Shown here: positions 426 through 57,991 of the stretch, in pieces
Layout of the letters: the number at the start of each line of letters is the position of its first letter
Position numbering within the stretch: position 1 is the stretch's first letter
Assembly: GCF_910592395.1 (NCBI RefSeq)
Contig: NC_088318.1
Span: 7,876,349-7,940,348 of the forward strand
Direction of reading: 5' to 3'
Source: Lineus longissimus
Lineage: Eukaryota > Nemertea > Pilidiophora > Heteronemertea > Lineidae
Length of the DNA stretch: 64,000 nucleotides
Made by a program: the position numbers and the translations under genes
The notes under the pieces: generated by a model
Databases searched by the model: none
What the model was told of the DNA's origin: nothing
Seen by the model: the letters and a program-made list of their open reading frames with translations, nothing else

Positions 426-3395
426 AGAACGACCGACTTGTTGGTCGGCGGTACTTGAGAGGTTTTAACCAGTAACCAGCCAGCTTAAAAGCTGGTTGGT
501 TACTGCATAGATTGCCTGATTCTTTGAAATTATGCTTTCCATTGGAGACTGAATGGGATGGGTAACTGTATCACCTTGCCGATCAAAGCTCTGCTCTGTG
601 GTCGAAGGCCTATTCAAGCTATGCTCTGCAACAAAAGGTCGATTGAACTGGGCGAACAAGAGGCCCAAGGGCCTGGCGCTCAGCTGAGTTAATATCATTA
701 ATATCTTCCCGGTGTTCAGTTCATTATGCATGAAAATGGCATGCTCCATGGTATTTGATATCCTTTTGCGTTCACTACGGTTCCAATGTTTTTGGTTGAC
801 ATAATTATGCCACTGTTCATTCCTCAATCCTGACCATAATTCGGGTGAAATCATCGTATGAAAATATTTACCGAAACATGAAGTTTATGCCATGAATGAG
901 GACACTCATTGTCATAGCCTCGTTTACAAGTACGAAGTATTTTCCCGCGAATATTCAAAACTGCTTGGCTCCTTGCCAGTTAAATAACATGTGACTATAC
1001 ACAAAATAGAAAACTTTGATGGAAATCATTTTTTTATCTATCAGGGGAAACAAGCTGATGATGATCAAATAAATCATTCATGAGAAATCGTTTTGTTGCT
1101 GAAGCTTGCATGACGAAGTTAATGCTAAACCTTTTCTTGTGCTCTACTGCGCCACCGTAGTTTTCTATTTAGACCAGCGATGACGTCATTTCTGGTGATT
1201 CCCTACGTTGTCCAATGAGCGCTTTTTAAAATGTGCCATTTGGTATTGTACAGTATGCAATGTATTTTTTCAGCGCTGACAGTTGCCGAACAGAATGCCG
1301 TAGCTCCCTCAATTTCCAATCAATTTTTATGGGAGTGACATTATTGTATTGCTTAGAATGTCTACTTTTTACTCATGAAAGAATCGTAGAACTGAAACTT
1401 AATAGGGAGCTCTTAAGCGAGCTTTATGGTTAAGGGTCGAATGTGTGCGTGTATACCGTCAACGAAAAAAACTTGACCCGCTTGACCGGAACCAGAAAAC
1501 CTCTGCACCCAGGTGACATTTTTGCACGCGAATCGTATACGCTAATGCACAGCAATTTACCTGGGGAGAGATTTTCTTTTTCCAAACAATTCAGCGGGAC
1601 GCTGCGATGTTTACGCGGAGAAGCCGCTGTTCGGTTGAAGATTTCGTCAAAACAGGGCCGAATCAAAGTGTGACGATACCCTGGGGCGAATCGAAATGCA
1701 TTAAACAACATCTGCATCGCTGCCAGAGATCATTTTTTTCTTTCCGCGAAGAAATCGTGCTTTGAACTGGCAAATTTCCGCAAAAGATTTTCCGTCTGCT
1801 AACTTTTCCGTAGTTTCAAGCGCACCAAAATGATCGGTCCGGGGCTGCCCGTTTCCGACGACGATTTCGTCAATATCATGGGGTGTGACAATATGTCAAC
1901 GGTCTGGTTCCATTAATAATGCAATAATCTTGAAAGCACATTGGTCTCAATGTCTATTTCCCCGTTTCCATGTCAAAATCCTACCGTGAAACCTGAAACC
2001 ACTCGTCCACAACACTGGCCATTTTAATTTTCCGTAGAAAGCGCATGCGCACTTAACTCAAACGCACGCGCTACCCTCAGGTCTCACAAGCCGGTGCGGA
2101 GGCCAGGCCTACCTGCCTCCAAAAATGACGCGACGTCATTTCATGCATACCCCTGTTCCAGCGGCTGTAGACTTGGCAGTACGTTACTCTCACACAAACC
2201 AATACATTTCTGAATAGCATGTCTCTTGTATTGTAGAATACATCTGACCAAGTTTGACCAAGTGATCAGGTGTTAATCTTGAAGTTATAAGGCATAGAGG
2301 TGAAATTTTTTCAAATTTGCGTTATACAGGGTGTCTCATGCATTGTGCTACATCAGTCTATGCATGACTGTATGTCTAGGCGACGTTGGTCTTTTTGAAT
2401 TAGAATATAAATCTTAATTACACTTGGGTCTTGGGATCATTATGCTTATCTCCGGGCAAAAATACCTATCCTTCTCCTGTTGTGTTTAGTTTCCCACATT
2501 CTCCCCACTTATTTTCTATACTGCGACAGCGTCTATTGGGTCAACTGCCATGATGGCATCATCCTAACTATATCCCCCCTCTCCCACCCACCAACTACTC
2601 GCCATCAATCATTGACATTGTGTGCTAGCCAACTGCTTCTTCGGTAAACTGCCATGATGGCATCATCCTAACTATATAACCCCCCCCCCCACCGAATCTT
2701 CTCGCTCACCAGCCCTATTAACGAAGAGCTCCCTATCAAGGCCTGAGCCTTCCTCATATTAGGCGAACAGAATCATGCCGATTCACTGCACATACTGTGG
2801 GAATTCTCCACTTCAAAATACATCGGCGATGTCATCGCGAACAGAGCATGTACTTCCGATATCGTTTTCACAGAAATGTGGCCAAATTTTCAAGAACTAA
2901 TTTCTGAAAGTAGTCTCTAAAGACCTTATGACTACCACTGAAACGAACTAGTGATAATATCGCCTACCAATACTACTTTTTAAGCAGAAAATTGGGTACT
3001 TGAGTGTCATTGAGCTCCAGGCGTAAACAACATGCCGCCATTTTGTCTCCGCTTCGGTATTTCGTACGCCGCTTATAATGCACCTTCTCAATTAAAACCA
3101 ACATAATAAGGCCTTACATCGTTGATTGAATAGGAACACCACACAAAACACAATAAAGTGGGGGTACAATCGATTACGAAGCTGAAGTGAACAGTGATTT
3201 ATTCCTGGAGCTACTGCTTTTGTTGTGTAGCTGCCATGTTTTGAGAACTGGCAAATAGGAGACTTCATTAATGGCTGACGTCATCGGGCGGGAATTTGAA
3301 TCGGCAGAAATAATTAAAAGGCAGGTAGCGCCCTCTCCTGTTAAAATTTTGAACTTTTTCTCAATAAAATAGATTTTCAAGAATTTTATCTTAAT
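426..3395. other. No gene seen; scattered regulatory-like motifs
   Basis: I find no coding sequence of recognisable family here. Visible motifs are a CRE palindrome TGACGTCA at 1181-1188 and an NRF1-like palindrome GCGCATGCGC at 2041-2050. A lone mariner-type end (ATACAGGGTGTCTCAT) lies near 2324, with no partner nearby. A 31-bp near-exact duplication (starting AACTGCCATGATGGCATC) occurs at about 2544 and 2648. The cluster of CpG-containing sites at 1.1-2.2 kb could be a decayed promoter, but no transcript structure supports that. Confidence 0.4.
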
Positions 3396-3592
3396 ATTAG
3401 AGCATATTTCGACTAATTCTGCTGCTCCTAGGCCGATATAGGCCAGTTTCCTTCATGCACTCTCGCTCGCAGGAAGTAGGTCGAATGGCGACAAATTTTG
3501 TTTTGAAAGTAGAGTTTGACCAGAAGTATCCAGAAATGCAAAATTGAAGTCTCCAGGTCTTACGGTTACAAAATGTGCACCATGGGTTTAAC

Positions 3593-8104: not shown

Positions 8105-9217
8105 CAGCCGTGACACACGAATTGGATCTCTTCATCCAACATCTCAATGATTGCCAATCAAATTCACGGCGGAAATCTCCAGCCAGTCAGTGAATTTTCT
8201 AGACACAGTAGTCAGCATCAATGAAGACCATAATATCATCACGTCCCTATACTGCAAACCTACTGACACGCACAACTACCTGCTGTTCTCCTCAGCACAC
8301 CCGAGGGATTGCTTCAAAAGCACACCCTACAGTCAATTTCTCAGAATCCGCCGGATCTGTAGCCTGGACACAGATTTCGAGGAAAATGCCGTCATGATCG
8401 GCCGCCACTTCATGCGACGTGGCTACCCTTCATCGCTTGTAGAGACAGCCCTCATCCGGGCCTACCGCACCTCTAGATCTGATCTCCTCAGAGATGAGGC
8501 CCCACTGGACACGGACGATCAACCAGGGACGACTGAGGACAATTTCTTCCTCATATCGACCTTTATCCCGGGCTTCCAAGCACTACAGCGCATTGTTAGC
8601 CACAACTGGCCCGTGCCCCTGAAATCCATTGCAACAGGTCAGCTACATGATTCTCGCATCACATTTGGCCACAGAAAACCTACCAATCTCAGGGATCTTC
8701 TGGTCAGAGCCAAATTCCCAGACAACGCAACACAATCAGGGGGACCTACAATCTCCACTGCCGGCGCAACCCGTTTGCCTCCGGGCTCCCGCAACGCATG
8801 CCCAAGAGCCAATACCTCTTGTGGTTACTGCCCTAAACTCAATCTGACGGGAAGGATCGGCAGCACAACTACCACGCGCTCATACACGGCCATGAAGCAC
8901 ATCACATGCAAAAGCAGTAACCTCATTTACTACATCACATGCAAAAGATGCAACCAACAATACGTTGGTCAAACCAAGCTCCGCCTCATGGAGAGATTTG
9001 TAAAACACTTTTACAATATCTCCAAGGGCAACAAAGATGACACCATCAGCCGGCACTTCACCAGCCATAACCATGCAGGCATTGATGATGTGTCCATATC
9101 AATCCTGTCCTTCATCCACACCCACCCAGAATCGCTGGACTCAGGGACACCATCGAAATCAGATGGATCCATAGATTGTGCACTGTAGCTCCGTTGGGAC
9201 TCAATGTCCTAGACTAG
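8105..9217 (+). pseudogene. Penelope-like element, 3' half: end of RT and GIY-YIG endonuclease
   Basis: The long frame (8151-9188) opens with the post-RT signature VNFLDTVVSI...LYCKPTDTHNYL and runs to a cysteine motif (CPRANTSCGYC, about 8798-8832). A GIY-YIG core follows (NLIYYITCKRCNQQYVGQT, about 8919-8975). Penelope-like retroelements carry this endonuclease C-terminal to the RT; it nicks the integration target. Two frameshifts are visible. Upstream of 8151 the matching residues (ELDLFIQHLNDC) are in another frame. After about 9140 the conserved end (WIHRL...PLGLNVLD) is in a third frame, stopping at 9215-9217. The RT catalytic part is missing, so this is a dead 5'-truncated copy. Confidence 0.85.
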
Positions 9218-12990: not shown

Positions 12991-13240
12991 AGAGGTTGGC
13001 AGATACGAAAGGCCTGTTATTCGAAGAGTTGAACGGTGTTGCGACTTCTGTGATACTCTTTAAGATATACCACAGTCGTTTAGGACAAATTTCACTTTCT
13101 CTTGAATTGCCCTAAACATAGTATCGCAAGGAATGCTGTTGCATCCTTTAAAGACAAACTATCTGTCAATTGGCAAACTTTCTGACAAGGATATATTTAT
13201 ATTTTTCATGGTATTGTGGTGATCTCGGTCTTGATGGCAC

Positions 13241-13500
13241 CGTTGCTAACTGTTGCGAACTGTTGGTACGCAGGGTGACGTCATCACCGGGTTTGGCGCA
13301 TCCTCCTCATGTGACGTATGTCGATGAAGCCGACGTCTTCGGGCGACGTCGGGCGGTCAGGGCAGGGGATTGTTGCAAAATGTATGTACGTTGTTGGAAG
13401 AAAAAGGCGGAAGGAGAGCGCACGAAATAAAAAAGAGAGACACCGTATTTGAGCCGTTTTATTGCATTTATTACAAGAAGAGGAGCGGAAGATTATAACA
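13241..13500 (+). repeat. Gypsy 5' LTR
   Basis: 260 bp matching the 3' LTR. The first base is C where the 3' copy has T (canonical TG start); the end is ACA. It contains CRE-like TGACGTCA (about 13,277) and GACGTC motifs, and a polyadenylation signal AATAAA at 13,426-13,431. Confidence 0.9.
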
Positions 13501-13501
13501 C

Positions 13502-13518
13502 TGGTGGCAGCGGTAAGG
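13502..13518 (+). other. Primer binding site
   Basis: TGGTGGCAGCGGTAAGG starts one base after the LTR. A TGG start complementary to a tRNA CCA end, at this location, is the usual gypsy primer binding site. I have not identified the tRNA. Confidence 0.7.
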
Positions 13519-13540
13519 GATTGAATCTGCGTGAATAATT

Positions 13541-14011: not shown

Positions 14012-15021
14012 GGGATCACTTCCAAAGTCCGCACGCGAATGGGGGCGGAAATTCGCCTGGTCGAATATCGCCACACTCATTCGCCTCCAAATCACTCCCT
14101 GCTTCGGCGATTCTATTATGATCAGGCGAAAATTCAGACTGAATAAAAATCGCAGTCGAAAATAATAATCGCGCCTAATTCGCTCTCACCAACCATCGGA
14201 ACGAAGCGAATATTTAAGAGGCCTACATGTGTTGTAGTATGCGTATTCCGATATCAGCTGATAGCAGACCGAACAAAAACACAAACTGGAATTCCCGGTC
14301 AACCTGACTGCAGTAATCATATACATCACATCTATCCACGAGGAGCTACACAAATTTGGCACAGAGGTTTGAGGTTCTTAGTATTATGGTATGGATTCCG
14401 AAGGATTGTGGCGGAATGTACCGAATCATACAGCTAATCATAGTTAGGCTTATGTTTCCGAGTCTCAGCCAACCAATCAAGATCGTTGTAGTATCCGGTT
14501 ATCCTAAACAGCATCCACCAGCGTTCACCAGGTTTAAAGTCGGGTATAAAGTCATCAAATAAAATTTTGTGGCCAAAACGTAATACGTACACCATAAAAA
14601 ATACATTTCCTGAAAATTTCATGCTTATTTCGTTTATGACCATTAGATTTTACTTTGATGGCTTTAATGTATGTATGTGTTTAAACCTGGTGGATGCTGT
14701 TTAGTATGACCCGATTTGTTTACGTGACTGCACTTTTCCGCCAATAAAACAAGACGAAAGTCGTTGCAAAATCGTTCCGAATATCGGACAAGCATGCAAG
14801 AGCCAGCAATTTCGTAAAATCGTTCCATTATTGCCTGGAGCGATTTTTTGGGCGAAATCGAAGAATAGGCGCGATTGTGGGCGAATTTCGCATCTGACAT
14901 TCCGGCGATTTCATATTATTGCTCACATTCGCCGGTCGATTTTCGGACAGATTTCGCAGGCGAAATACTGTAGGGTGAATTTCGCCGGCGAATATCGCGT
15001 GCGGACTTTGGACGTGATCCC
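14012..15021. mobile_element. PIF/Harbinger-like non-autonomous element, copy 1
   Basis: 1,010 bp with inverted ends GGGATCACNTCCAAAGTCC / GGACTTTGGACGTGATCCC extending about 30 bp. It is flanked by the 3-bp duplication TTA (14,009-14,011 and 15,022-15,024). TWA duplications are characteristic of PIF/Harbinger. A near-identical copy lies at 54,602-55,613, also flanked by TTA. Both ends are packed with GCGAAATTTCGC-like short palindromes. No transposase frame is present. It interrupts gypsy gag. Confidence 0.8.
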
Positions 15022-15687
15022 TTATATGCCGCCCTAGGCGTACAGGTACCAGATCAGATGTCTTCGTTTTTTGACTGCTTTGCTTCGTTGATGCAAAACA
15101 GATTAAAGCAGGAGCAGTCAAAACCGCCTACGTCTGCAAAGGTGCAGGCTCCAAAGAACTATGCGCCTAACCTTAACTTTAGAATTTGGTTAGAACGATT
15201 CAATTCATATGCGGATCTGGCTAGAATCCCAACATCACAGAGACAGCAACAATTACTGTCCAGACTTGAACATCAGGCCTATGTGGCAGTAGCCAATCTT
15301 AATCTTAGTGAGGAGATTTCTTATAAGGATTTTACGTCAGCCCTAGAACGGAGGTTCCACAACACAACCAGGGAGGATTACAAGCTACAGTTGAGAGCAC
15401 GTCAACAGGGGTCGACAGAGTCACGGGAAAGCTATTCTGATGCATTGCAGGAGTTAGCACTAAATGCATGTCCCAGCGGAGGTTTTGAACTGCAACAAGA
15501 AATGGCTTTGGACTAGTTTTTAATGGGCGTGAAATTGTCCGAGGCATTAAAACAGCAGCTTTTAATGAGTTCGCCAAAGACACTAGAGGAAGCCATAAGA
15601 AAGGTGCGACAGTTGGAGGCCGCCCAGCTACTTTTGAATCAGGGACACATCACACAGCACACAGCTCAAGAGAGACCAAGGCAGTGA
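15022..15687 (+). pseudogene. Gypsy Gag capsid region
   Basis: The frame encodes the retrotransposon gag fold: FRIWLERFNSYADLARIP, then YKDFTSALERRF, then ESYSDALQELA. A single in-frame TAG (15,514-15,516) is followed in the same frame by the conserved FLMGV...PKTLEEAIRKVRQLEAA end, terminating at TGA 15,685-15,687. No CCHC knuckle is present. The pol frame is open from about 15,513 in the -1 phase, so gag and pol overlap by up to 170 bp, the usual geometry for -1 frameshifting. I see no convincing slippery heptamer. The N-terminal part is cut off by the inserted transposon. Confidence 0.8.
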
Positions 15688-16742
15688 GTCAGTCAACACT
15701 TAACCCGGTTGCCAAAGTCTTTAAACCAGCGTCGAAATTGAGTTGTGGTAAAATTCCTTTGTCAATTGGTCACATCAAGTTTAAAGATACCAGTTTGTAT
15801 GTCAGTGGAGAAGTCGTGGGGGTGCCCACAAATATTCTTCTCGACACTGGGGCAGGACTTACCTTGGTTAGTAACAGCCCATGGAAGCAATCAAAGGGAA
15901 CAGATGAAAAGGAACTGAAGAAGGTCGATGGGTGTTTACAATCTGCTACTGGAGATAAACTGAAGATATTAGGCATGGTTGACATAACCTTCCAACTTGG
16001 ATCCATGGAATTTGAAATTCCGACAGTGGTTGTGGAGAATCTGACTCATGACTGCCTCTTAGGGAGCGATTTCTTTACAACCAATGATTGTGCAATCGAT
16101 TATAAAACAGCGACGCTGAGGATTGGTGAGAAGGAAGTACCACTCCGGAATCACCGTGAGGAGCCAAAGGTCTGCCGTGTTGTTCTGGGAAAACGAGTAA
16201 ATATTCCTGCCAATACGGAGATGATTATTCCGGGGAAACTAGCCAAATCACCATCAAAAAGTCATTTGGTACCAGGACTAGTTGAAACAGGATATAACCA
16301 GCAAAGATTCACAACAGGAAGATCTCTGGCGTCTTCGGACCATGGTAAGGTGCCAGTGAGAGTAGCCAATTTCTCGGACAAGCCAGTGACAATACAGTCA
16401 AATCGAACAATTGGATGGTTTCATCCAGTGGAGGTGATCAGTGCTGCTGAGGGACTGGAGCAGTATCGGCGAAAGGATCTGGACTTCAAGCCACCGAAGA
16501 AAATGAAACGATCAAGACGCCCGAAAAAACCAGAGAGTATTTCACTGGAAACTAAAGTGCCTGTCAGTGAGCAGAAAAAGCCACAGGTTAACATTGCGAA
16601 CATTAAGACAGTGGATAACTCTGAGTCTGACAATAATTGCAAGGATAAGTCTTCAATTTCCATTGAGGTTCCTGATAATGAGGCTGCACAAGCCCTGTTA
16701 GAAAAGCTTCTGGAAAAACTGGAGATAAAGGTCTTGACATAA
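15684..16742 (+). pseudogene. Gypsy Pol: aspartic protease and linker
   Basis: The protease active site appears as ILLDTGAGLTLVS (about 15,835-15,873), with the later conserved HDCLLGSDFF (about 16,047-16,077). Protease cleaves the Gag-Pol polyprotein. A lysine-rich linker (KKMKRSRRPKKPE) follows. The frame closes at 16,740-16,742, while the RT continues in another phase from about 16,700, so a one-base-type indel separates protease from RT. Confidence 0.85.
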
Positions 16743-16744
16743 CC

Positions 16745-16920
16745 GTGGAACAAAGAGAAGTAGTGACAGATCTTATCGCAAGACATCAATATGTTTTCTC
16801 TATGGGAGATTTCGACTTGGGAAAGACCACTGTCATACAGCATACCATCGACACAGAAGATGCGGTGCCGATCAAGCAGCGAGCAAGACGTGAACCTCCA
16901 CATAAGGAACACTTTGTTAA
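16745..16920 (+). pseudogene. Gypsy RT, N-terminal segment
   Basis: The text IARHQYVFSMGDFDLGKTT and HTIDTEDAVPIKQRARREPP is the standard start of a gypsy RT. It stops at the TTAA (16,917-16,920) where a DNA transposon sits. Taking out 16,921-17,838 (918 bp, a multiple of three) leaves the two RT parts in the same phase. Confidence 0.85.
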
Positions 16921-17834
16921 AGGATAGCTCCTGGAATAAATCGTTGGCAGCCTTTTTGAACGAAACCAATGGAAATATATTAAATGAGTATTTCTCTTTA
17001 CCACAAACCTTTTGAAAGTGGAAGAAATATTATAGTTCAGGGAGAAAAATTGATATTAATAGTCCCTATTTTACTGACATGGACAGCGCCATTTTGAGTC
17101 AAATTTCCCTCGGTGATGACGCGGTGTGTGCAATGGCAGTGATTGGCTGAAATTCCGAAGCACCTATTGTGCATATCGTGCGCAGTGAATATCCGTTTCT
17201 TCGCGATTCACATCTCTCTCGCATGTCTCAAGATTTCACGCAATTAAATCATTCTAATTTCGTTTTATTTGGACATTCGCGTAATATATGGATTGCTTGA
17301 ATGCAAAATGCCTCGGTCATGGTCCTCATTTTGGCCATCAACATCGGGTCCAGCTGCATCTTCAATAGCTTGAGCCATAGCGTCAATCTCCCCCTCTCTT
17401 CATATTCCGGCTCAAACTGGTAGCCCTGTACACCAACATTTCCCCCTACATCCAAATCTTCATAACTCCCGCTGCTCATGGAAGTGTCACTGCTGTCAAC
17501 GTAGCTTTCATCATCCGAAGCCCCCTTGATAACAATACAATAACACGATCTCAAAATATCAATCAGCTGACTGCTATTGTGACAATACTGACAATGTGAA
17601 TTGCACACGTGACGTCACGATTCTCCGGTTTTGGAGGAGAGATAGCGAAAAAAGTGAGAAAATGGCGCCCTACATAAACTCTGTGTTTAGTGGATTGAAA
17701 ACACCTTTATTGGTACAAACGCAAATTTTTGAGCGATATACAGTCCTATATTGGAATAATAATGATATACGGAATATGCAGGTGCGTTAGTTTTCCCGAT
17801 TATCGCTATAGCGATTTATTCCAGGAGCTATCCT
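16921..17834. mobile_element. TTAA-type (piggyBac-like) non-autonomous transposon, copy 1
   Basis: 914 bp with inverted ends AGGATAGCTCCTGGAATAAA / TTTATTCCAGGAGCTATCCT (at least 23 bp), flanked by TTAA on both sides (16,917-16,920 and 17,835-17,838). Copy 2 is at 34,123-35,085, also between TTAA. TTAA duplication is typical of piggyBac. No transposase is encoded. The interior is a promoter-like block plus a minus-strand exon-like ORF. The target identity is supported by the clean restoration of the RT reading phase. Confidence 0.8.
17249..17608 (-). pseudogene. Exon-like ORF carried by the TTAA transposon
   Basis: The conserved part starts MSSGSYEDLDVGGNVGVQGY and continues QFEPEYEER after an acidic Ser/Asp stretch. 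Such a Ser/Asp-rich start followed by Y-x-FEPE is how many uncharacterised invertebrate proteins related to the P2X7-like C-terminal domain begin; that link is from memory and tentative. Copy 2 (34,626-34,859) keeps the same residues to EERGR, then diverges. Immediately upstream on the coding side lies CACGTGACGTCAC (about 17,607-17,619), an E-box/CRE composite, and on the other side AAAATGGCG. It looks like a captured promoter with a first exon rather than transposase. Confidence 0.4.
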
Positions 17835-17838
17835 TTAA

Positions 17839-19009
17839 GGACACAGTCAAGGAACTATCCAATCGAGACCTGCTCAAGAAGTCAGATAGCCCTTGGAGCT
17901 CTCCGATCGTTCTGGCCAAGAAAGCTGATGGCTCATACAGATTATGTGTGGATTACCGGAAACTTAATTCAGTGACAGTCAAATCAGCACAGCCATTAGC
18001 CCGAATAGATGATACTCTGAACAAACTTTTGGGAGCCAAGTTCTTCTCTACTCTGGATTGCGCCAGTTGCTATTGGCAAGTGGGTATGTCACCTGGGGAT
18101 CAGGCCAAGACATCGTTTGTGACGGGAGTAGACCAATATGAATGGAAAATGATACCATTTGGTTTAACAGGAGCCCCTGCAACGTTCACATGCATGATGA
18201 ACACAGTCCTGGGAGGACTGGACTTCTGTTTGGTTTACCTCGATGATATCGTTGTTCATTCATCCAGTTTTGAAGAACACATGAGTCAGCTGGATCAAGT
18301 ATTCACACACCTGGAAGCAGCCAATCTGAAGTTAAAACCAAGCAAGTGTAAACTTTTCCGAGAGATGGTGAAATTTCTTGGCCGCATTGTGAACACTGGA
18401 GGCATATCAACAGATCCAGAGGAGGTTGAGAAAGTTAAAAATTGGCCTACTCCAACTTGTTTGTCAGAAATTTGTTCGTTCATGGGTCTTGCGACGTACT
18501 ATCAAAAGTTTGTCCCAGACTTCGCTCAAATTGCCTCTCCACTGCACAATTTGACAAAGAAGGGTGTGCAATTCGCGTGGTCAGAGCAGTGCGAGAAATC
18601 TTTTCAGACATTCAAAGAGAAGCTGATAACTTCACCGATACTGGCCTATCCAGATTTCAGCAAGGACGCCGGATCTTTCATTCTGGATACAGATGCAAGC
18701 GAGTTTGCCATAGGAGCAGTTTTGCCACAAAGGCAGAGAGATGGAACAGAGAAGGTCATAGCCTATGGGAGTAAAAGTCTACAAGGAGGTGAAATGAATT
18801 ACTGTATAACAAGGAGAGAAATGTTAGCATTTGTTACATTTGCAGAGCACTTCCGGTACTTTCTGCTTGGGAAGCAATTTCACGTGCGGATAGATAATAT
18901 GGCATTGAGATGGCTGTTGAACTTCAAGGAACCTTCAGGACAAATTGCGAGATGGCTAGAAAGGTTAGCAGAGTTTGACTACGTCATCGAACATCGGCCA
19001 GGAGTATAA
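17839..19009 (+). pseudogene. Gypsy Pol: RT and RNase H
   Basis: RT motifs run in order: SPWSSPIVLAKKADGSYRLCVDYRKLN, FSTLDCASCYWQ, the catalytic YLDD (about 18,236-18,247) and FLGRIV. RNase H follows with DTDASEFAIGAVL (about 18,680-18,720). The domain set makes and degrades the RNA-DNA hybrid. The frame ends at TAA 19,007-19,009 within the conserved HRPG..H.NADALSR motif, which continues in the same frame after the stop, so this is a point nonsense mutation. Confidence 0.9.
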
Positions 19010-20785
19010 CATGGTAATGCTGATGCATTGTCTAGGAGACCAAAGAAAGTTCGGCAACATGGAGATTGTCCATCCTGTGGACCCACAGACCGACCAGCAC
19101 CTCCAATGGTTAACATAGTGCAACTAAAAACTTCTCTAGACATCCCGGAACTAACGATTGATGAGATCAGGAAAGCTCAGAAGGAAGATCCAGATATTCG
19201 GGCCATTCGACAACATATTGCTGAGACGACGGAGAAACCATCACAGAAGGCACTACAGTCATGTACTCTCTAGCGAGCTATTTGGGCTCAGCATGGTCTA
19301 CTGGAAATAAAGGACGGAATCCTATACTTGAAAAGCCAGGGCAAACTCCGACTAGTTCTTCCTCAATCCTGCATTGCCACAGTCGTCAAGGAATTACACC
19401 AAGGTTATGCTGGTGCCCATCTTGGAGTACAAAAGACTGTCTGGAAAGTGAAACAGCGCTGTTGGCTCCAAGGACTGAAGAAAAATGTAATAAATTTCAT
19501 TCGTTCTTGTGAAACTTGTCAGAAGTGCAAATCCGGAAAGCGCACTTAAGCCGACTTACAGAGTATTCCAGTTGGTCGTAGAAACCAAAGAATTCACATT
19601 GACATCGTAGGACCAATCAACCCACCATCAAGGAAAGGAAACCGATACATTCTCGTGGCCCAGGATGCTTTCACAAAATGGCCCGAGGCGTGGCCTATCA
19701 GGAATCAGAAGGCTACAACATGTGCTAAGGTGCTGGTGAATGAATATGTTTGCAGATTTGTTACTCCAGAGAACCTTCACTCGGATCAGGGGACTAACTT
19801 TGAATCCAAAGTATTCAAGAAAATGTGCAAACTACTAAATATTCATAAATCCAGGACCACATCTTACCATCCGCAATGTAATGGACAGGTTGAACATTTC
19901 AATGGATCCTTGAAAAGAATGCTGACAACTTTGGTGGACGAGGAGGGTAGGGACTGGGATAACCACCTTCCAGCTTCCCTGATGGTCTTTCGTTCAGGAA
20001 TTCAAGCTTCGACCTTAGAGACCCCAGCTGCGATGACCTTTGGTGAAGAAATGAACCTTCCACTAGACCTCGTCCTTGGAACATCTAGTACATCAGACAA
20101 TGAGACTGAGTCAACGAAGTATGTTTCGGATCTCCGGAAAAAGATAGCGCGTGCAAACGGAAGGGTACGGGAAAATTTGAAGATAGCGCAGAGACGTCAA
20201 AGGACCCACTATGACAGAAATTCGAAGTCCTCATCTTTTAAACCGGGAGACCAGGTTCTAGTCAGAAACCATTATGTGAAAGTCGACGAGGTTTCCAAGT
20301 TCCATAAACCATGGAAGGGACCATTTGAGGTTTTGCAGAAGTTGTCCGAGGTTAACTTCAAGTTATTTCCACTGGGAGGATCCAAGACTCACTCCAAGGT
20401 AGTTCATCTCAACAATATGAAAGCATTTCATACGGGGAAAGATGGGGAGCAGCTGGATGAGATAGGATTAGTAGGGAAAACTTCAAAAGAAACTGCATTA
20501 GATTCTCACGAGGTGGAGTCCGATTTGGAATCTTCCCCTATTAAGTCTACTCAATTCACTGATAGTCCTTCTTCCGAGGATGGTTCGGACATCGACCATG
20601 AAGAGAAGCAGTCTACACGTACATTACGACCCCGCAAGAACATCTTGAAGCCGGCGCGATTTGGAATTGATTGCTGCAGCCTTCATCATATGCAACAGGA
20701 AATCATCAAGAAGAAGAAGAAACGTTGGATGAAGAAAGGCAGTAAACTACGCAGGTTTGGCTGTCAGGATAGCATCAATAGTTAG
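19010..20785 (+). pseudogene. Gypsy integrase with broken zinc-finger part
   Basis: The same frame as the RT continues to 20,785 with two further stops (TAG 19,271-19,273; TAA 19,547-19,549). The HHCC zinc domain is visible as H..H then CETCQKC (about 19,508-19,528). The DDE core is IHIDIVGP, HSDQGTNF and GQVEHFNGSLKRM. A basic/acidic C-terminal tail ends in a lysine run (KKKKKRWMKKGSKLRR), possibly nuclear-localising. Apart from the three stops the integrase is well preserved. Confidence 0.9.
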
Positions 20786-20861: not shown

Positions 20862-20902
20862 TTACTAATGAGGCCGTTTTCTTTCTTTTCCTATCGTTTC
20901 AG
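20862..20902 (+). promoter_or_regulatory. 3' splice acceptor with branch site before ORF3
   Basis: TTACTAAT (20,862-20,869) resembles the consensus branch-point TACTAAC. It is followed by a pyrimidine run (TTTTCTTTCTTTTCCTATCG) and TTTCAG ending at 20,902. The very next base starts the ATG of ORF3. Branch A to AG is about 34 nt, a normal distance. This suggests that ORF3 is made from a spliced subgenomic RNA, as env is in retroviruses. Confidence 0.65.
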
Positions 20903-21759
20903 ATGGAGTCCGTTATCAATCTAGATGGTTTGCCGCATGATGTGAAAGAGGCAAAGTCTGAAGTTACAAAGGCCCTATATTCGTTTGTTCATCGAAGACT
21001 CCGGTTTCGTCAGGAGGTGGACATCCCTTTTATTGAATTGGAGCGACTGATAGAAATATCCACATCAAATGTTGTCGACGTAAAACTCACTCTCACCAGT
21101 GCAGTGATCCAAACATTTATAATGCTGATTTTCCGGATCCGTCCTAGCTGGAATGTCCAGATGAAAGCTATTAATGAAGTGGTAACCCTTGTCATCACGT
21201 TTCTTAAAGAAAGAGGTGTCAGTGATTTGAAAATTAATGATGTTAGAGATCGAGTACGTGTGCTGCAAGATAGGGTTAGGGAGTACAATGCCGCTGGGAA
21301 GCAGCGCCCGCCGATTTTGCTTCTCGGGGACTCCATGTTTGTCAAGACCAAGCCATCGTCAGATCTGTTTCCATTAGCTTTTTCAGGGCAGACGGCAGAA
21401 GGGTTGAGAGTGATGTTGAAGAGCATTCAACCCAGACTAAATATCAGCGATGTTGTCATCACCCACGGGCTAACCACACTAACGACTATGGGGAGCCGGA
21501 AGAAGACATGATCATCATCAGAGATTTTCTTATACAACATTACCCCATGGCCCGCATTTTTCATCTTCAACTACCAGTGTCCCCAAAGGTGGCGAGAAGT
21601 GATGGTATGATGAGACGTGCACTGCGATTTAACGGAATGATGCAACGAGTTGGATTCCAGTCCATTCCTCATCCGATGCTGAATAGATACGGATTTGACC
21701 ATGACCAGTTCCACTACTCCAAGATCGGGAGGACCACAGTCGAGAGGCACTGTTGCTAA
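20903..21759 (+). pseudogene. Third ORF of the gypsy element: SGNH/GDSL hydrolase-like
   Basis: The frame starts MESVINLDGLPHDVKEAKSE and has a helical N-terminal part of about 130 residues (RDRVRVLQDRVREY coiled-coil-like). An SGNH-type core follows: block I PPILLLGDSM (about 21,312-21,338) with the nucleophile Ser, and block II FSGQTAEGL with its Gly. After a frame change at about 21,465-21,480 come block III HTNDYGEPEED (about 21,475-21,507) and block V D-x-x-H (DQFH, about 21,703-21,714). The ending overlaps the first 9 bp of the 3' LTR. SGNH enzymes are esterases or acyl-hydrolases. No signal peptide or membrane segment is obvious, so it is unlike a typical envelope protein. The frameshift makes this copy inactive. 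It could be a captured host gene; its position between integrase and LTR argues that it belongs to the element. Confidence 0.6.
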
Positions 21760-22010
21760 CTGTTGCGAACTGTTGCTACGCAGGGTGACGTCATCACCGG
21801 GTTTGGCGCATTCTCCTCATGTGACGTATGTCGATGAAGCCGACGTCTTTGGGCGACGTCGGGCGGTCACGGCAGGGGATTGTTGCAAAATGTATGTACG
21901 TTGTTGGAAGAAAAAGGCGGAAGGAGAGCGCACGAAATAAAAAAGAGAGACACCGTATTTGAGCCGTTTTATTGCATTTATTACAAGAAGAGGAGCGGAA
22001 TATTATTACA
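21751..22010 (+). repeat. Gypsy 3' LTR
   Basis: 260 bp, TGTTGC...TTACA, matching 13,241-13,500 with about seven differences. The same CRE-like motifs and AATAAA (about 21,936) are present. Confidence 0.9.
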
Positions 22011-22100
22011 GTATCTGAAGGACATATTTCTAGAAATGTATCCAAATTCTCTCTAGAAAGCCTTCCATAAAACACTTCATTGTCAATCCTCACTAGTATA

Positions 22101-23725
22101 CAGGGTGCCTCATCAAAAAGGTAATCCGGGTGAAATGGGTTAATGAGATGAGACTATGGATTTTACTGATGCCATTGTGATGTCCATGCTGCTATGCAGG
22201 ACTGAGCACCATGGCCTTGAAAAAGACATGAATATTTCACCATGTTCCAAGTTGGGAACTTCCATGCAGTTTATGTCACACATGGTTGAGGGTCAATTGT
22301 TCATTGAATGTAAGACTGTTTTGTCATAACTGGGAGGGGTAGATCTTGGCCTAATTCATTAAAAAAAGCATAGATATGCGAGTACTCAAGGCAGTGTGTG
22401 TGACAGATTTTGCGCTGATGGTGCAGCTAAGCACAGAGCAGAGAGTGTTCGTTGTGAAAAGATTTCAGGAAACAAGAAGTTTGCAAGCTATGCAAGATGC
22501 CTTCAGGGATACTTTTCAAGATCAAGATGCTCCTTCCAAAAATACCATTTGGGCAAATTTCAGGAAATACGACCAGCATACCACAAGTTTAAACAGGAAT
22601 AAGGGTCTAAGGGACCGAAGACAGTGCGATATGATCAAATCATCGAAGCAGTCCGTCGGCAACTCGAGACTCATCCTCGAAATGCAAGTGCTGGACGAAA
22701 TGGAAAAGGATTATCACACGCTTCATTCAATCGCACAACAAGGGTTGATCTTCATCAGCATCAATACCACATTCATCTTCGACATCAGCTACCACCGGGC
22801 GATTTTGCTCGACGAGAGGTCTTTTCCCGCTGGTTATTGGACAGATGTGAGGCTAATCCACGATTTCTGGAGAACCTTACAATCAGTGATGAAGCGGGCT
22901 TTGGGGTGAATGGGGAGGTAAATACGTACAATGTGATTCAGTATGCACCAAGAGGACCCTCCTGCTTCTGATTTTGAAAGGAGCATTGATCAAAACTAAG
23001 TTACTGTCTGGATCGGACTGATTGGAAATGGAGTTGTCATTGGACCTTTTATTTTTGACAGCAACGTCAATGGACAAATCTACCATCAAATGATCGACGA
23101 TGTTGTCCAATACCTGGAACAACACTTTGAACGGCAGATGTGGGTACTTTCAGGCAGCTATGTTGGGAACATGATGGTGCGTCACCACATTGTCTTTGCA
23201 CAGTTCAGGATACCTTCACAGCTTTATTCGGAGACCGCATAATTGCGCTGAACCGCCGAGTGGAATGGGCCCTGAGGTCACCAGATTTGACCCCCTGCGA
23301 TTTTTTTCTTTGGGGGCACCTTAAGAACAAAGTTTATGAGTCTCCAGTGCAGGACTTCGCAGACATCAGAGATCGCATCATTCGGGAGTTTGATGCTTTA
23401 AGGAATGATCCGGAGATGGTGCAACGGGCTATGCAGCAGCGTTGTCAATTGTGCATCAAAAGGGGAGGTGGGCACGTGGAGAGTGTTGGGGCTTAAATTG
23501 TAAAAATGTTGAATTCAAGTGGAATAAAATGCATCTGAAAGAAAAAGATGAATTATTGATCATTAAACATGCTTCATTCTCAGCCATGTAATGTGGCTTA
23601 ACGTCTAGCTGGAATTTCCCTACTTGGAACAAGATGATTTCTGCATGTCTTTCTCCAGACCATGGTGCTCAGTCATGCATAATAGGTTGGATGTTGCAAT
23701 GGTATCAACACAAAGCTCATAGCTT
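22101..23725 (+). mobile_element. Mariner-type transposon with long subterminal inverted repeats
   Basis: The left end is TA followed by CAGGGTGCCTCATCAAAAAGG at 22,101. The sequence at about 22,160-22,290 (actgagcaccatgg...cttgttccaag) matches the reverse complement of 23,590-23,720, so the inverted repeats were more than 150 bp long. The right terminus itself has decayed. The transposase lies between them. Confidence 0.75.
22415..23496 (+). pseudogene. Mariner-like transposase, DD41D spacing, frameshifted
   Basis: The N-terminal helix-turn-helix half (QRVFVVKRFQETRSLQAMQ...NTIWANFRKYDQH) is in one frame to about 22,600. The middle moves to another (22,624-22,971), with the first catalytic Asp in TISDEAGF. 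The end is in a third (23,140-23,496), with EHDGASPH and RSPDLTPCDFFLWG. Counting between the second and third Asp gives 41 residues, the spacing described for the VISITOR-type DD41D group. At least two indels make it dead. The enzyme would cut and paste at TA sites. Confidence 0.8.
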
Positions 23726-37247: not shown

Positions 37248-38156
37248 ATGTCTGTCAACGCTGCAGAAACTAGGTCAGATGGCCGGTCAGATGCTGTTCG
37301 CAGAAGTACACGTTACCTCGCTCCCAAGGCAAACCCCGAGTCCTGAGAGATTGCGGTCGAGCAGACGATACATCTGGCAAGAAGTCGGGGCGGTTTCGCA
37401 GCACAAGTCACTGTCCGTAATAAAAGATTCATTGAGGCTGTAGAGCATGGCTCACCTACCAGCAAACTTCAGGCCCCTCTTGATGAACTGGAACTATCAT
37501 TCGAAAAGTTCTGTGAGGTTCATGAGCGGTACGTGAAGATGTTGACGGACCTAGACCCTGCTAAAGCCGATGAAGTACGAGAGCATTTTAATTATGTGCT
37601 CAGCCAAGTCCAAGTCTCACGCCTTAAGTTTATCCGGATCCAGGAACGTGAAGACATGATCCAACCGTCTGACAGCGTATCACATTGCGGAAGCAACACG
37701 TCCAGAGTCAGCAAAGCATCGAGCTATCTAGCGGTTGCCGCAGCGAAGAAGGCAGGCTTAGTCGAAAGAGCCCGTTTCTCAAAGGAACATCAGGCGTCGA
37801 AATTACAGCTCCAGGCCGAAATCGAAGAACAGAAAAGATGGGCCGAACATCAGAAGTTTGAAGCAGAACGACGCAAGTTGGAAGCTGAAGAACACGCTAA
37901 AATGTCCCAGATGGAGCTAGAAAGAAAGACTAAAGAGTTAGAACTACAGAACGAACGCTTACAGGTTGAGGCCGAGCTTCGAGCAGCAGACGCTGAAGAA
38001 CAGACACTGGTTAAATTCCTAGAGAAGAGGCCTGTCACACCCATGCCACCCATCCACGAAGAACCAGAGAAGTCACAACAAACTACTGAGAAGTCGCAGC
38101 TCAACCCCTTTGTAATTGAGTGGGGAAGATTGACTCTGACACCATGGGGACCCTAA
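37248..38156 (+). pseudogene. BEL Gag N-terminal, coiled-coil region
   Basis: From ATG 37,248 (MSVNAAETRSDGRSDAVRRS) the frame is interrupted by TGA at 37,344-37,346, then continues in the same phase to 38,153. A long charged heptad region (about 37,800-38,010; AEIEEQKRWAEHQKFEAERR) predicts a coiled coil, expected for BEL gag N termini. After 38,156 the protein continues in the -1 phase, so an indel lies near 38,120-38,150. Confidence 0.7.
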
Positions 38157-40912
38157 GAACAGAGTTTCACACAGCCACAGAGCCTGAAGTCAGCCCAATC
38201 AAGAAAGCCAACGTGTCTCTCAACCCATTCGCACCAGTGTGGAGACAGCCGGAATCGTTTATCCAACACTGTACAGATGGCGCTGCCACTCCAGCCAGAT
38301 GGTTTGAATTCGACACCGGCAAAAGGGCACTGTTTGACCCAGTCTCCTCCACCAGAATAATGCCAGAAAACCGATCGGGAGGTCACAACCCTTTCCTACC
38401 TGAACAAAATGCTGATTGGTATCCAAGATGCAGCGAGTTTAATACCTTCTAGCCGGTGCAAACAGAATTTGTCCCTGCCATGTGGATGTCACAACCACCT
38501 GTTATTAGGAAGACACCGCCGATTCTGCCAAGGATGACGTAGCCTGCACCTGTCACCATGACGCTGCCTGTCCCGATCATCAAGACGGCAGGTCCGACTT
38601 ATGTTCGTCCTCATGATACCCAGAGCAAGCCTGCTGAAGACAATCAAACCCTCATGAGCCAAGAGCCGACGACAGCCGTGCCCGCCGACTTACAGAGGCA
38701 GTTGATTGATGCGCTACGTCTCCCCAAGACAGGAATGATGAAATTTGGTGGCGATCCCATGGAGTATTGGGCATTTATCAACTCTTTCGACTGTATGGTC
38801 CACAGAACAAGCGTCTGCGATGGGGACAAGCTGAACTGCCTCCTTGAATATACGACTGGCAAAGCATCGAACGTCATCCGCCCGTGCGCCCTGATGAAGC
38901 CAAGTGAGGGATATCGACGTGCCAGGGAGCTGCTCAAAGAACGTTTCGGAGATGACCACACCATCCCCAGAGCCTGGATAAAGAAGGTAGTCGAAGGTCC
39001 GACCGTGCGCCCAAACTCCGGGGAATCCATTCAAGATTTCGCAGATGTTGTACGCATCTGTTTTGAGACACTAAGAGCAATGAGCAAGACGCGTGAAGTA
39101 AATTCTCAAGACCGTATGGTACAGATCGCGTCCCGTCTGCCACTGTATCTTCAATCGAGATGGCGAAAAGAAGCATACAGGACAAGACAGCGGACGAATA
39201 AATACCCCTCTTTTCAAGAATTCGTCAAGTTTCTGGACCTGGTTGCGGGAGAAACAAACGACCCGGTATTTGGCAAGATGGAGACAAGAGACAGCAAGCA
39301 GCACGACAAGACCAAGCGTCCTGCCACAGCACAGATGAAAAGTGTCAGCATGAACGTGCAAGCATTCACAAGCCAACAGAAATCCGAAACCACTGCTAAA
39401 AACCGACCATCACCGACTGCTGCGAAAGAAGACGCCAAGTGTCCCGCCTGCAGCAAGGAACACATGCTTTATACGTGTCCCGATTTCAAGTCGATGGAAC
39501 CGAGGAAGCGATTAGAGTTAGTTAAAGACAAAAGGCTCTGCTTTAACTGCCTGTCAAGCAACCATGGTTACCGAAAGTGCCAGAAGTCAAGCTACTGCAC
39601 CAAGGAGTGTAAATTTAAGCATTCCCGTCTACTCCATGCCGTGTTAGTGAAGGATGCCGAAACACCCAAGTCGTCATCATCGCCAGCCAAAGACAAAGAC
39701 CCTGAAAAGAGAACTGAGGCCAAGACGTTTGCCTGCGACAGTCTGAGTCAAGGTTCATCACGGATAGCACTGCCGATAGTACCAGTCTATGTGAGAGGTG
39801 CCGGTCAAGAAGACTTTATAAAGACCCATGCGCTGTTAGACACGGGGAGCAATAGGTCATTCTGCTCCATTGGTCTGCTGACGTCCCTCGGTATTGAAGG
39901 CACAAAGACTGAATTGGCATTAGAAACCCTTGGACAACGTTCAACTACGGGTGCCATGGAAGTTGTGCTGGAGGTTACATCGACGTCAAGAAAGGCCAAG
40001 AAAAGAAAAACCATTGAGCTGCCCAAGGTTTACGCTGTTGACAGGTTCCCGACAGGCCTGGCTGGAGTAGATCCTGAGAGTGTTACAAAGTGGAGCCATC
40101 TACCGGCGATCAATACAACTGATAAAGACAGACAAGTTAATCTACTGATTGGTCAAGATGTCCCGCGAGCTATGTCACACCTTGAAATTCGCCGAGGACA
40201 AGACATTGAGCCGTATGCAGTCAGGACCGCATTGGGCTGGACAATTAATGGTCCCATTGGTGGTTGTCCGAACGACATTGCAGCCTGCCATTTCATCGGA
40301 ACAGACCTACCTAAAAAAGATAGCAGTTTAGAAGCTCAAGTAGAAAGGTTCTGGAGACTCGACTCCAGCCAGTCGCTTGCCAGTGGTGTGCTGCAGATGT
40401 CACAAAATGACAGACGGGTGATTGATATCTGGGAAAGATCTACCAGTCTCGTTGATGGCCACTATCAACTGGAGATTCCATTCAAGACATCACCTCCTGA
40501 GCTTCCAGGCAACCGCACGATGGCAGCTGAAAGACTTCAGTCCCTGGGGAGAAGGTTGTTGCGTGACCCAGACCTGCGTCAGAAGTACAAGGCTGGAATA
40601 GAAGACCTCATTGACAAAGGATTCGCTGAGCAAGTCCCACCTGATCAGATGTCACATCCAGGCCACGAATGGTACCTCCCACATCATAATGTCGTAAATC
40701 CAAATAAGGCAGAGAAATTTCGGATTGTTTTCGACTGTGCCGCCGAATACGCTGGAACATCATTGAACAAGCAAGTACTACAGGGGCCTGATATGCTAAA
40801 CAGGCTGATAGGTGTCCTTGTTAGGTTCCGTGAACATCATGTTGCCATCATGGGGGATATCAAAGAAATGTCCATCAAGTCCAAGTCAAGCCAGAGCAGA
40901 GAGACGCCCTGA
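38120..40912 (+). pseudogene. BEL Gag (DUF1759-type), zinc knuckles, protease and start of RT
   Basis: The frame has stops at 38,450-38,452 and about 38,540, and is then open for 784 codons. The capsid-like segment is MKFGGDPMEYWAFINSFDCM...RRARELLKERFGDDH. The knuckles are CPACSKEHMLYTCPDF and CFNCLSSNHGYRKC. The protease site is HALLDTGSNRSFCS (about 39,827). The RT start is FRIVFDCAAEYAGTSLN and IMGDIKEM. The frame breaks at about 40,870-40,912 inside the RT. It is well preserved compared with the remnant at 27-30 kb. Confidence 0.85.
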
Positions 40913-41540
40913 GATTCCTTTGGTGGAAAAATGGAGACCCTGCCCAAGAACCTTAAGGCTTCCGACTGACCGTCGTCCACCTGTTCGGGGGAGTCTGGAG
41001 TCCGAGTGCAGCAAGCTATGCTCTACGTCGGACAGTTGATGACAACAAAGAGAAGTTCAACGCGAAGATAAGAGAGACAGTAAAGAGAGATTTTTACTGC
41101 GACGATTGCCTCAAGTCCGAACCAGACGTTGCCAGCGCGGGGGATTTAGTGGCCCAGCTGCGGCTACTACTGCTTCTAGGAGGATTCTGCCTAACCAAGT
41201 GGTCATCAAACAGTATAGAAGTCCTTCATCCATTCCCATTGAAGACCGAGCTAAGACAGTGAAAGACTTGGACCTGACGACAGACGCTTTGCCGGTAGAG
41301 AGGGCCCTTGGTGTACAGTGGGATACCAAGAAAGACAGCTTTAGCATCAAGATAAAGGAAAAGGAGCCAACCTTTACAAGACGCGGTCTTCTCCGAATCC
41401 TCAGCTCGATATATGATCCACTAGGTCTGGTCAGCCCATTCATCTTGGAAGCCAAGATCATATTCCAAGCCGAGTGCCGACTTGGGAAAGGTTGGGATGA
41501 CGTACTAACTCAAGAAAACGCCGCCAGATGGCAGAAGTAG
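40870..41540 (+). pseudogene. BEL RT palm and thumb, frameshifted
   Basis: After the break the RT continues in other phases: DALRFLWWKNGD, a TAA at about 40,950, HLFGGVWSPSAASYALRR, then the catalytic FYCDDCLKS (about 41,090-41,117). From 41,106 a further phase gives VKDLDLTTDALPVERALGVQWD and SSIYDPLGLVSPFILEAK. At least three indels make the RT inactive. Confidence 0.8.
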
Positions 41541-42328
41541 CTGGACGGTTTGCAGAAGCTCCAAGAATTTCAAGTCCCAGATGCGTCCAGAGACACAATT
41601 TCGGGAAGATCATTGAAGCGAAACTACACCACTTCTGCGATGGTTCGATCGCCGCTTACGGAGCCGTCAGTTTTCTACGTCTGAAGAATAGCCGGGGAGA
41701 AGTTTACTGCGCGCTGCTGATGTCAAAGTCAAGATTGGCGCCAATGACATCAATGACAGTCCCTCGTCTCGAGTTGTCCGCTGCTGTGGTCGCTGTGCAG
41801 CTTGATGCCCAGTTACAAAAGGAGATGACACTACCACTCTCAGAGTCAACGTTTTGGACAGACAGTACGATCGTCCTTCAATACATCAAGAACAAGACAA
41901 AGAGGTTCCAGACCTTTGTTGCGAACAGAGTTGCGCTGATTCATGAGTCCACACAGCCCAGCCAATGGAGATATATAAACACCAAGGACAATCCGGCAGA
42001 CGACACCTCGAGAGGGTTGACGGTCGAGCAGATGGTATCCTGTGATAGATGGCGCCACAGGCCACAGTTCCTAAGTCAAGATGAAGACAGCTGGCCAGAG
42101 CTTCCAGTCGGACAGCTCAACCTCCTCGAAAACGACAAAGAAGTGAAGAAATCGGTCAAGTCCTGCATTGCAAAAGCAGAGACATTCGCAGACGACGCCA
42201 TTACCGAGATGTTCAAGAGATATTCAAGCTGGCACCACCTGAAGAAAGCAGTGTCGTACATCCACAAGTTCATCGAATGGCTGCGCCTAAAGCGACCTGC
42301 ACAGTAAAAGCCCTTCACCGTACAAGAC
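41541..42328 (+). pseudogene. BEL RNase H region
   Basis: In order: HHFCDGSIAAYGAVSFLR, MTVPRLELSAAVVAVQ, STFWTDSTIVLQYI and WRYINTKDNPADDTSRG, all hallmarks of the BEL/Pao RNase H-like segment. A TAA at 42,305-42,307 separates it from the integrase, which stays in phase. Confidence 0.85.
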
Positions 42329-43716
42329 TTGGAGACAGCCGAGAAGTCTATCCTGCGCTATATCCAAGCCAAGAACTACAAAGAAGAGATACAGTCATTG
42401 AAAGCTGGCAGCCCCGTCGCAAGAAAGAGTCTGATTCGTGAATTAGAGCCATTCCTTGATCAGGACCAACTGCTGAGATTGAACGGTCGTCTGAAATATG
42501 CTGCAATACCGGACAGGACCAAGGATCCGATCATCGTCCCGACGAACGAACACGTCACAGAGCTGCTAATTCGAGACATCCACTGTAGGATCTCAAAGCA
42601 TTCCGGTCAAGAGCACGTCATGGCGAATCTTCGAGAGCGATACTGGGTCCCACAAGCAAGCACTGTGGTGAAACGAGTCCGGCGCACCTGCATCATCTGC
42701 AACCTACTCTACAAGAAGCTTTGTCAGCAAAGAATGTCCGACCTGCCCACCGACAGAGTCTCAGCGTCAGGCGCACCCTTCAAATTCGTTGGCGTAGATG
42801 TCTTCGGGCCATTTATGGTGAAGAGAGGACGCGCCCAGGAGAAACACTACGGTTGCATATTCACCTGCCTGTCGATGCGCGCTACACACATCGAGAAGCT
42901 TTCATCCATGGATGCTGATTCCTTCATCATTGCCTTGGTTCGATTCTCTGCCCGCAGAGGTGTGCCAACTCGAGTTAGAAGCGACAACGGCGGAAATTTC
43001 GTGAAAGGCTGCCGGGAATTGAGAGAGTCTACCACCAAGTGGAACGACAGCTACCGTCTCCAGCAGCACCTACAGCAGAATCAGGTAGAGTGGGTGTTCA
43101 ACACTCCGACGGCCTCGAACTGAGAGGAGTATGGGAAAGATGCATCCGATCAGTCCGAAGGGTGTTAAATGCCATCATCCTGAAGCAGTTATTGGATGAC
43201 GAACGTCTCGATACGATATTCGCAGAAGTCGAGTCCGTGATAAATAGCCGCCCGCTTACCGTGGTGTCAACAGATCCCAAGGACCAGCCGCCATTGACTC
43301 CAAACACCCTGCTGCGTCCATACGCCGAAGGATTTACGTCTCCACCGGGAAACTTCATTAAGGAAGACCAGTTCAGCTGCAGATGGAGACACGTACAATT
43401 TGTAGTAGACCAATTTTGGAAACGTTGGACTGCTGAATACTTGCCCACCTTGCAGTTACGCCCGAAATGGATTGAGCAGCAGAAGAATCTCAAAGTCGAC
43501 AACATCGTTTTGGTACTTGATAACACCCAGCCGAGGACACATTGGCCTATGGCTCGCGTGCAGAAAACGTTCCCAAGAAGAGATGGGCTGGTTCGGTCCT
43601 TGCAGCTGAAGATGTCATCAGGAGATACGCTGACAAGACCAATCAACAAGGTGGTGGCATTGGAGGCGTCATTGTCAGAAAGTGACGACGAGGACGACAC
43701 TCCGAATTCGGATTAA
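42329..43716 (+). pseudogene. BEL integrase
   Basis: The zinc part shows HCRISKHSGQEHV and CIICN. The DDE core shows FVGVDVFGP, RVRSDNGGNF and the Glu in GVWERCIRSV. The C-terminal part is LKVDNIVLVLDNTQPRTHWP, ending with an acidic tail at 43,714-43,716. One phase change lies at about 43,100 between the second Asp and the Glu. Apart from that it is complete. Confidence 0.85.
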
Positions 43717-57988: not shown

Positions 57989-57991
57989 CTA

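Follow-up and report, generated by a model that had tools for sequence, protein, structure and literature searches.

A predicted SGNH/GDSL hydrolase gene behind integrase is an old part of a Ty3/gypsy lineage in Lineus longissimus

Why would a retrotransposon carry a hydrolase-like gene in the place where env is usually found? In errantiviruses and retroviruses env occupies this same position, is likely expressed by splicing, and is lost in subfamilies that are still copying. We examined a stretch of 64,000 nt from Lineus longissimus (the window) and, within it, one long terminal repeat (LTR) element on the plus strand. Its LTRs, its target-site duplication and the order protease, reverse transcriptase, RNase H, integrase place it among Ty3/gypsy retrotransposons. 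The open reading frame (ORF) in question, ORF3, begins with an ATG at 20903, 117 bp past the integrase stop (20785). We conclude that it is almost certainly what is left of an old accessory gene belonging to one gypsy lineage, encoding a two-domain protein with a five-helix N-terminal domain and an SGNH/GDSL hydrolase domain.

Using the first ORF3 frame as query, we searched the genome from which the window comes (391 Mb in 30 contigs) and obtained 42 matches to the N-terminal part at E ≤ 0.001. Ten of these, the window copy not counted, were 93-96% identical to the query. Seven of the ten were fetched, and each of the seven proved open over 305 codons, 291 counted from its first Met, so the check on sister copies that the original prediction had proposed found ORF3 intact in 7/7; the other three close sisters had open frames of 296, 278 and 168 codons. 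Among 15 diverged loci, several carried full-length frames of 291-334 codons and others were cut or broken. When nine intact proteins were aligned, identity to the first was 27-41% across families, against 98% inside the first family. Other public data yielded two outside relatives, P0001 (287 aa, 44% identity) and P0002 (170 aa, 49% identity over 57% of the query), both of which keep the same blocks. Given the number and closeness of the genome matches and these two relatives, the similarity is more than chance.

Invariant positions in the nine-protein alignment include D143 S144, S161 G162, H188 G189 L190 N191 H192 and H271 Y272 S273 G276. Residues were also counted at 16 loci (L011-L026, about ten families, some with two to four copies; L001-L010, the first family, were left out). 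Block I reads DS in 9/9 aligned proteins and 16/16 loci, the preceding residue being G, A or S, and block II reads SG in 9/9 proteins, with G162 at 16/16 loci. Block III is HGLNH, in which N191 and H188 are kept at 16/16 loci and G189 at 15/16, and it has H in the place where the usual GxND has D. In block V, H271 is present at all 16 loci, and the residue three positions before it is D or E at 13 (D in 10) and N or K at 3. The GDS of block I, the Gly block and the terminal D-x-x-H that had been read in the window were all recovered there, as PILLLGDSMF, FSGQ and DQFH. The frame break reported ahead of block III is also real, and the first frame departs from the sisters' reading inside that block, but the "TND" named as block III was a misreading: intact relatives have HGLNH, and the TND a little further downstream is not kept from family to family. 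Nor is 21759 the natural end of the gene. Similarity to the sisters ends at 21749, about 8 codons short of their stop; from there a deletion leads into the LTR, which supplies the stop at 21759.

The predicted fold has an SGNH alpha/beta/alpha core over residues 138-290, with five strands alternating with helices, and structure matches of the ORF3 model (Foldseek) were dominated by SGNH enzymes, sialate O-acetylesterases among them. The catalytic subunits of PAF acetylhydrolase Ib (PDB 1wab, 1bwq, 1es9), a cellular enzyme, matched at 16% identity, with the helical N-terminal domain of ORF3 outside the matched part. Over 15 pairs of proteins the SGNH domain was more alike (45.3%) than the N-terminal domain (22.8%). 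The core that the original prediction had looked for was thus predicted. Judged from the kept Ser, Gly, Asn and His residues together with the predicted fold, ORF3 is very probably a member of the SGNH family, as had been proposed; we treat the Pfam cut-off as an annotation tool.

Integrase matches end ahead of the ORF3 frame at 15/15 diverged loci, and an LTR follows ORF3 in the window and in 7/7 fetched sisters of the first family, which upholds its placement behind integrase. A terminal repeat pair enclosing ORF3 was seen at L012 and L024, the other diverged loci showing no pair over the stretch covered. In several families, as in the window copy, the ORF3 start is preceded by a pyrimidine tract with YAG. 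With at least 11 of 15 letters required to be pyrimidines, an acceptor-like site lay within 30 nt of the start in 7 of 10 rows, versus 8.2% of random upstream places in the same loci. At L013, L021 and L019 the conserved reading continues at the acceptor without an ATG, and a start codon in an upstream exon is therefore likely. Just past its 5' LTR the window copy has a donor-like GTAAGG. L011, the only sister examined at this point, has identical donor letters and different primer-site letters. ORF3 is thus probably made, like env, from a spliced messenger in which the 5' leader is joined to an acceptor near the ORF3 start.

We then compared distances in ORF3 with those in pol, using one row per family. 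ORF3 distances correlated with those of reverse transcriptase (r 0.71, 9 families) and of integrase (r 0.74, 10 families), and 0 of 5000 permutations reached either value. Between families the proportion of silent differences (pS) was 0.735-0.82 and that of protein-changing differences (pN) 0.29-0.48 in 6/6 pairs, which indicates that protein changes were held back while silent sites became saturated. By these sequence comparisons ORF3 is an old part of the gypsy lineage that diverged together with pol. It is not a fresh capture, and the earlier suggestion of a recently captured host gene does not agree with an ORF3 divergence that follows reverse transcriptase and integrase across families.

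Some copies of the lineage lack the gene. The reverse transcriptase search listed 108 matches, with 106 of 1761 candidates scored, and all its counts are lower bounds. Among the matches listed there was an identity gap between 60% and 52%; of at least 55 loci at 60% or more, 29 had an ORF3 match no more than 9 kb downstream and 26 did not. The four ORF3-less copies that we read (on C5, C14, C10 and C7; reverse transcriptase identity 71-72%) share a common junction with a 9-bp overlap, at which about 850 bp, including nearly all of ORF3 and the acceptor, are gone relative to L013. Their reverse transcriptase-bearing frames are open over 1519, 1519, 1519 and 1186 codons, respectively. An identical deletion in four places suggests that the deleted form was copied (segmental duplication is an alternative) and, therefore, that the element does not depend on ORF3 in cis; copies that bear the gene may help in trans. 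Sister copies lacking the ORF, which had been expected to speak against the gene, do occur, but they are confined to a subfamily that lost it by deletion, as comparison with ORF3-bearing close kin shows, among the copies read.

What we observed is a predicted fold, the S-G-N-H residues kept, the slot, a divergence that runs with that of pol, constraint from family to family and, in several places, a subfamily that lacks ORF3. These facts fit an accessory gene that acts, as env does, at a step other than copying within the genome. The most likely mechanism, which we put forward tentatively and at somewhat less than even confidence, is an env-like accessory task performed through ester cleavage on a membrane lipid or glycan; here we infer catalysis, substrate and membrane role. 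Splicing would join the 5' leader to the acceptor near the ORF3 start, and the enzyme made from this messenger would cleave an ester on a cell-membrane lipid or glycan. The cleavage would help particles to get out of cells, into them, or from one cell or host to another; copying within one genome would not require the enzyme. We chose a membrane or surface ester as the first candidate substrate because of the env slot, the fold matches, and work on an esterase of long interspersed nuclear elements (LINEs), as PMC3905857 presents it. Taken as a whole, an old accessory gene, spliced and with an env-like task, is the best explanation, and we place it only just short of an even chance.

Several observations weigh against this explanation. 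Lipase_GDSL_2 matched three of six proteins in the profile check that had been proposed, all at 18.0-19.9 bits against a Pfam cut-off of 32.9, and the other three had no match to any GDSL model in Pfam; P0001 and P0002 likewise had no Pfam GDSL-profile match. The whole ORF3 model has a predicted template modelling score (pTM) of 0.58, the D or E ahead of the block V His is absent at 3/16 loci, and 3/10 rows have no acceptor-like site at the threshold used. In the genome search 26 of the at least 55 reverse transcriptase loci had no ORF3 match, 4 of the 26 having been read at that place. Unlike true env, whose fold differs from that predicted here, all nine proteins lack anything resembling a membrane span in a simple hydropathy analysis (their highest means over 19 residues are 0.88-1.26), as the original prediction had said of a membrane anchor; over the first 30 residues, where a signal peptide would show, hydropathy is at most 0.57, and an upstream exon could add residues. 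Constraint is also not clear within families: pN/pS averaged 0.61 over 21 first-family pairs, 6 of them undefined for want of silent changes, and was 0.92-3.30 in 5/5 other within-family pairs. Weak constraint at this level is expected if inserted copies drift, and in bdelloid elements, too, ORF3 variation within genomes is described as mostly neutral (in the relevant part of PMC5408684).

ORF3 might instead bind membranes and aid particle or ribonucleoprotein assembly in the cell, with slow or no turnover, like the ORF1 esterase of CR1-type LINEs. The esterase of the LINE ZfL2-1 binds acidic phospholipids and liposomes, according to the account in PMC3905857; the SGNH domain of ORF3 can be aligned over blocks I-V with a 531-codon SGNH frame, L032, of this genome, at an hhalign E of 7e-4 and a probability of only 26%; and net charge is positive in 8/9 ORF3 proteins. 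The ninth, however, from L018, has a net charge of -5, ORF3 is a separate 3' gene and not a gag fusion, and the ORF3-less form in at least four places implies that assembly in cis does not need it, so that we consider such a role rather unlikely. Unlikely to a slightly greater degree is a host regulator, an enzyme that would weaken silencing or signalling by deacylating or deacetylating a protein, glycan or lipid messenger of the host; the lack of a visible membrane anchor is in keeping with it, and deacetylation and depalmitoylation are among the options given for transposon SGNH enzymes in the portion of PMC3905857 that treats them. More doubtful is outright replacement of env, in which gypsy particles would carry, or be released together with, a soluble SGNH esterase that acts on a membrane lipid or acetylated surface glycan and lets the element pass between cells or hosts. 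Selection on this passage would have kept the enzyme over long times, and subfamilies that turned to within-genome copying would have lost it. SGNH-fold esterases serve some RNA viruses as receptor-destroying enzymes, and the structure matches include, as noted, sialate O-acetylesterases. We regard as quite improbable a non-enzymatic derivative that serves as a binding fold, as in Drosophila Oskar: the OSK domain of Oskar was one of the structures matched by Foldseek (5a4a, E 5.7e-03) and the three loci without the acidic residue would suit it, but Ser, Gly, Asn and His are kept at 16/16 loci. A host gene captured recently and carried along by chance is hardly credible, for although SGNH-coding places, whether host or mobile, are numerous in the genome (PF13472 has 50 matches), ORF3 diverged with pol, its silent sites are saturated, and its active site is kept across families at 27-41% identity.

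The original prediction knew of no esterase-like protein in this slot of gypsy elements, yet a GDSL esterase ORF3 is described for the Vesta LTR retrotransposons of bdelloid rotifers (PMC5408684). As here, the Vesta enzyme is an SGNH/GDSL protein encoded behind pol, patchy by family, without a transmembrane or coiled-coil domain and reported to be spliced (predicted in the present case), to go by the sections of PMC5408684 that deal with it, where the authors propose recent acquisition or later loss for the bdelloid pattern. The present case differs in belonging to a gypsy lineage of another genome and in an ORF3 divergence that tracks pol. By description, which is how Vesta was compared, it is also set apart by the five-helix N-terminal domain, by the HGLNH of block III and by an ORF3-less subfamily that arose through one shared deletion. 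Vesta has a dUTPase between protease and reverse transcriptase (the same part of PMC5408684); none is among the window domain matches listed. CR1/RTEX/L2-type LINEs likewise carry an SGNH hydrolase, but in a 5' ORF1 with a coiled coil (PMC3905857, as far as its ORF1 description goes). Ngaro elements have an extra SGNH ORF behind the core genes, as here, but use a tyrosine recombinase and lack the integrase of LTR-gypsy elements (from the passages on Ngaro in PMC9210276). Parts of PMC4021074 mention SGNH genes that Helitrons have moved and that have amphioxus relatives, and parts of PMC6431247 mention GDSL in Terminons. For Troyka, what PMC12440569 says of env, hydrolase and ORF3 includes no such ORF, and among the open-licence papers listed no further gypsy case was seen. 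Enzymatic ORF3s, described in bdelloid rotifers, would thereby occur in a gypsy lineage of a different genome as well. The contrast between ORF3-bearing families and a still-copied ORF3-less subfamily opens the question of an enzyme in the env slot to comparison across species.

The same genome holds SGNH ORFs in other settings. In a second gypsy lineage (L046:1471-2085, 2443-3402; L052:1422-4745) an SGNH ORF (Lipase_GDSL_2 E 4.8e-08) lies about 0.4 kb upstream of a gag-like ORF without a Pfam match, with reverse transcriptase, RNase H and integrase behind. A similar SGNH ORF stands ahead of another long ORF at L030, L035, L037, L041 and L047. The near-identical L031, L038 and L042 have an SGNH ORF, matched in L038 at E 1.2e-08, and behind it another ORF, which in L038 has about 320 codons and no Pfam match. 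In the LINE-like L053:1-2649, the first ORF has RNase H, PHD and SGNH domains by Pfam and the next is endonuclease-like by eye; when L053 was compared with ORF3, its SGNH part gave no alignment.

Table 1. Parts of the gypsy element and its ORF3, in window coordinates.
Feature	Position	Strand	Remarks
Target-site duplication GTAT	left 13211-13214, right 22011-22014		flanks read by eye
5' LTR	13215-13500	+	286 bp, TG..CA
Putative primer-binding site TGGTGGCAGCGG	13502-13520	+	runs into donor-like GCG/GTAAGG
gag part	14974-15516	+	PNMA and Retrotrans_gag matches weak, below cut-off
Protease frame	15489-16742	+	Asp_protease_2 E 9.5e-08
Nested insertion	16917-17838		perfect 27-nt inverted ends including TTAA; splits pol
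Reverse transcriptase and RNase H	17840-19009	+	RVT_1 E 3.6e-32
Integrase, H2C2 zinc binding and core	19274-20785	+	internal stop at 19547-19549
Predicted splice acceptor	20878-20902	+	pyrimidine tract and CAG, directly before the ORF3 ATG
ORF3 first frame	20903-21511	+	ATG to stop; N-terminal domain, SGNH block I (GDS near 21330), block II (SGQ)
ORF3 second frame	21487-21749	+	remaining SGNH domain including DQFH; last few residues lost
3' LTR without its first 21 bp	21746-22010	+	deletion with 4-bp overlap

The LTRs were first detected as a 265-nt direct repeat, and comparison with sister copies then lengthened the 5' LTR. The 3' LTR lacks its start because the deletion joins ORF3 position 21749 to the LTR; about 580 bp lie between the endpoints of this deletion in sister L003. 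The two LTRs differ at 7/265 positions in the window copy and at 1/286 in sister L011/L004. The window copy is damaged by the insertion that splits pol, by stops in pol, by the broken ORF3 frame and by the ORF3-to-LTR deletion. The insertion has the look of a non-autonomous DNA transposon.

Other features lie elsewhere in the window. At 22167-23707, inverted repeats of 98 nt with 79% complementarity surround broken frames that are mariner-like by eye, one of them without a Pfam match. A frame at 8151-9188 has a weak GIY-YIG match (E 0.00029, below cut-off), a domain that occurs in Penelope-like elements. A probable BEL/Pao element spans 37347-43716, with DUF1759 in 38543-40909 (E 2.7e-09) and pol-like frames, by eye, behind it. 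The 761-codon open frame at 44656-46941 has no Pfam match at E 0.001, and a reverse transcriptase fragment (RVT_1 E 6.7e-21), LINE-like by eye, lies on the minus strand at 56484-58016.
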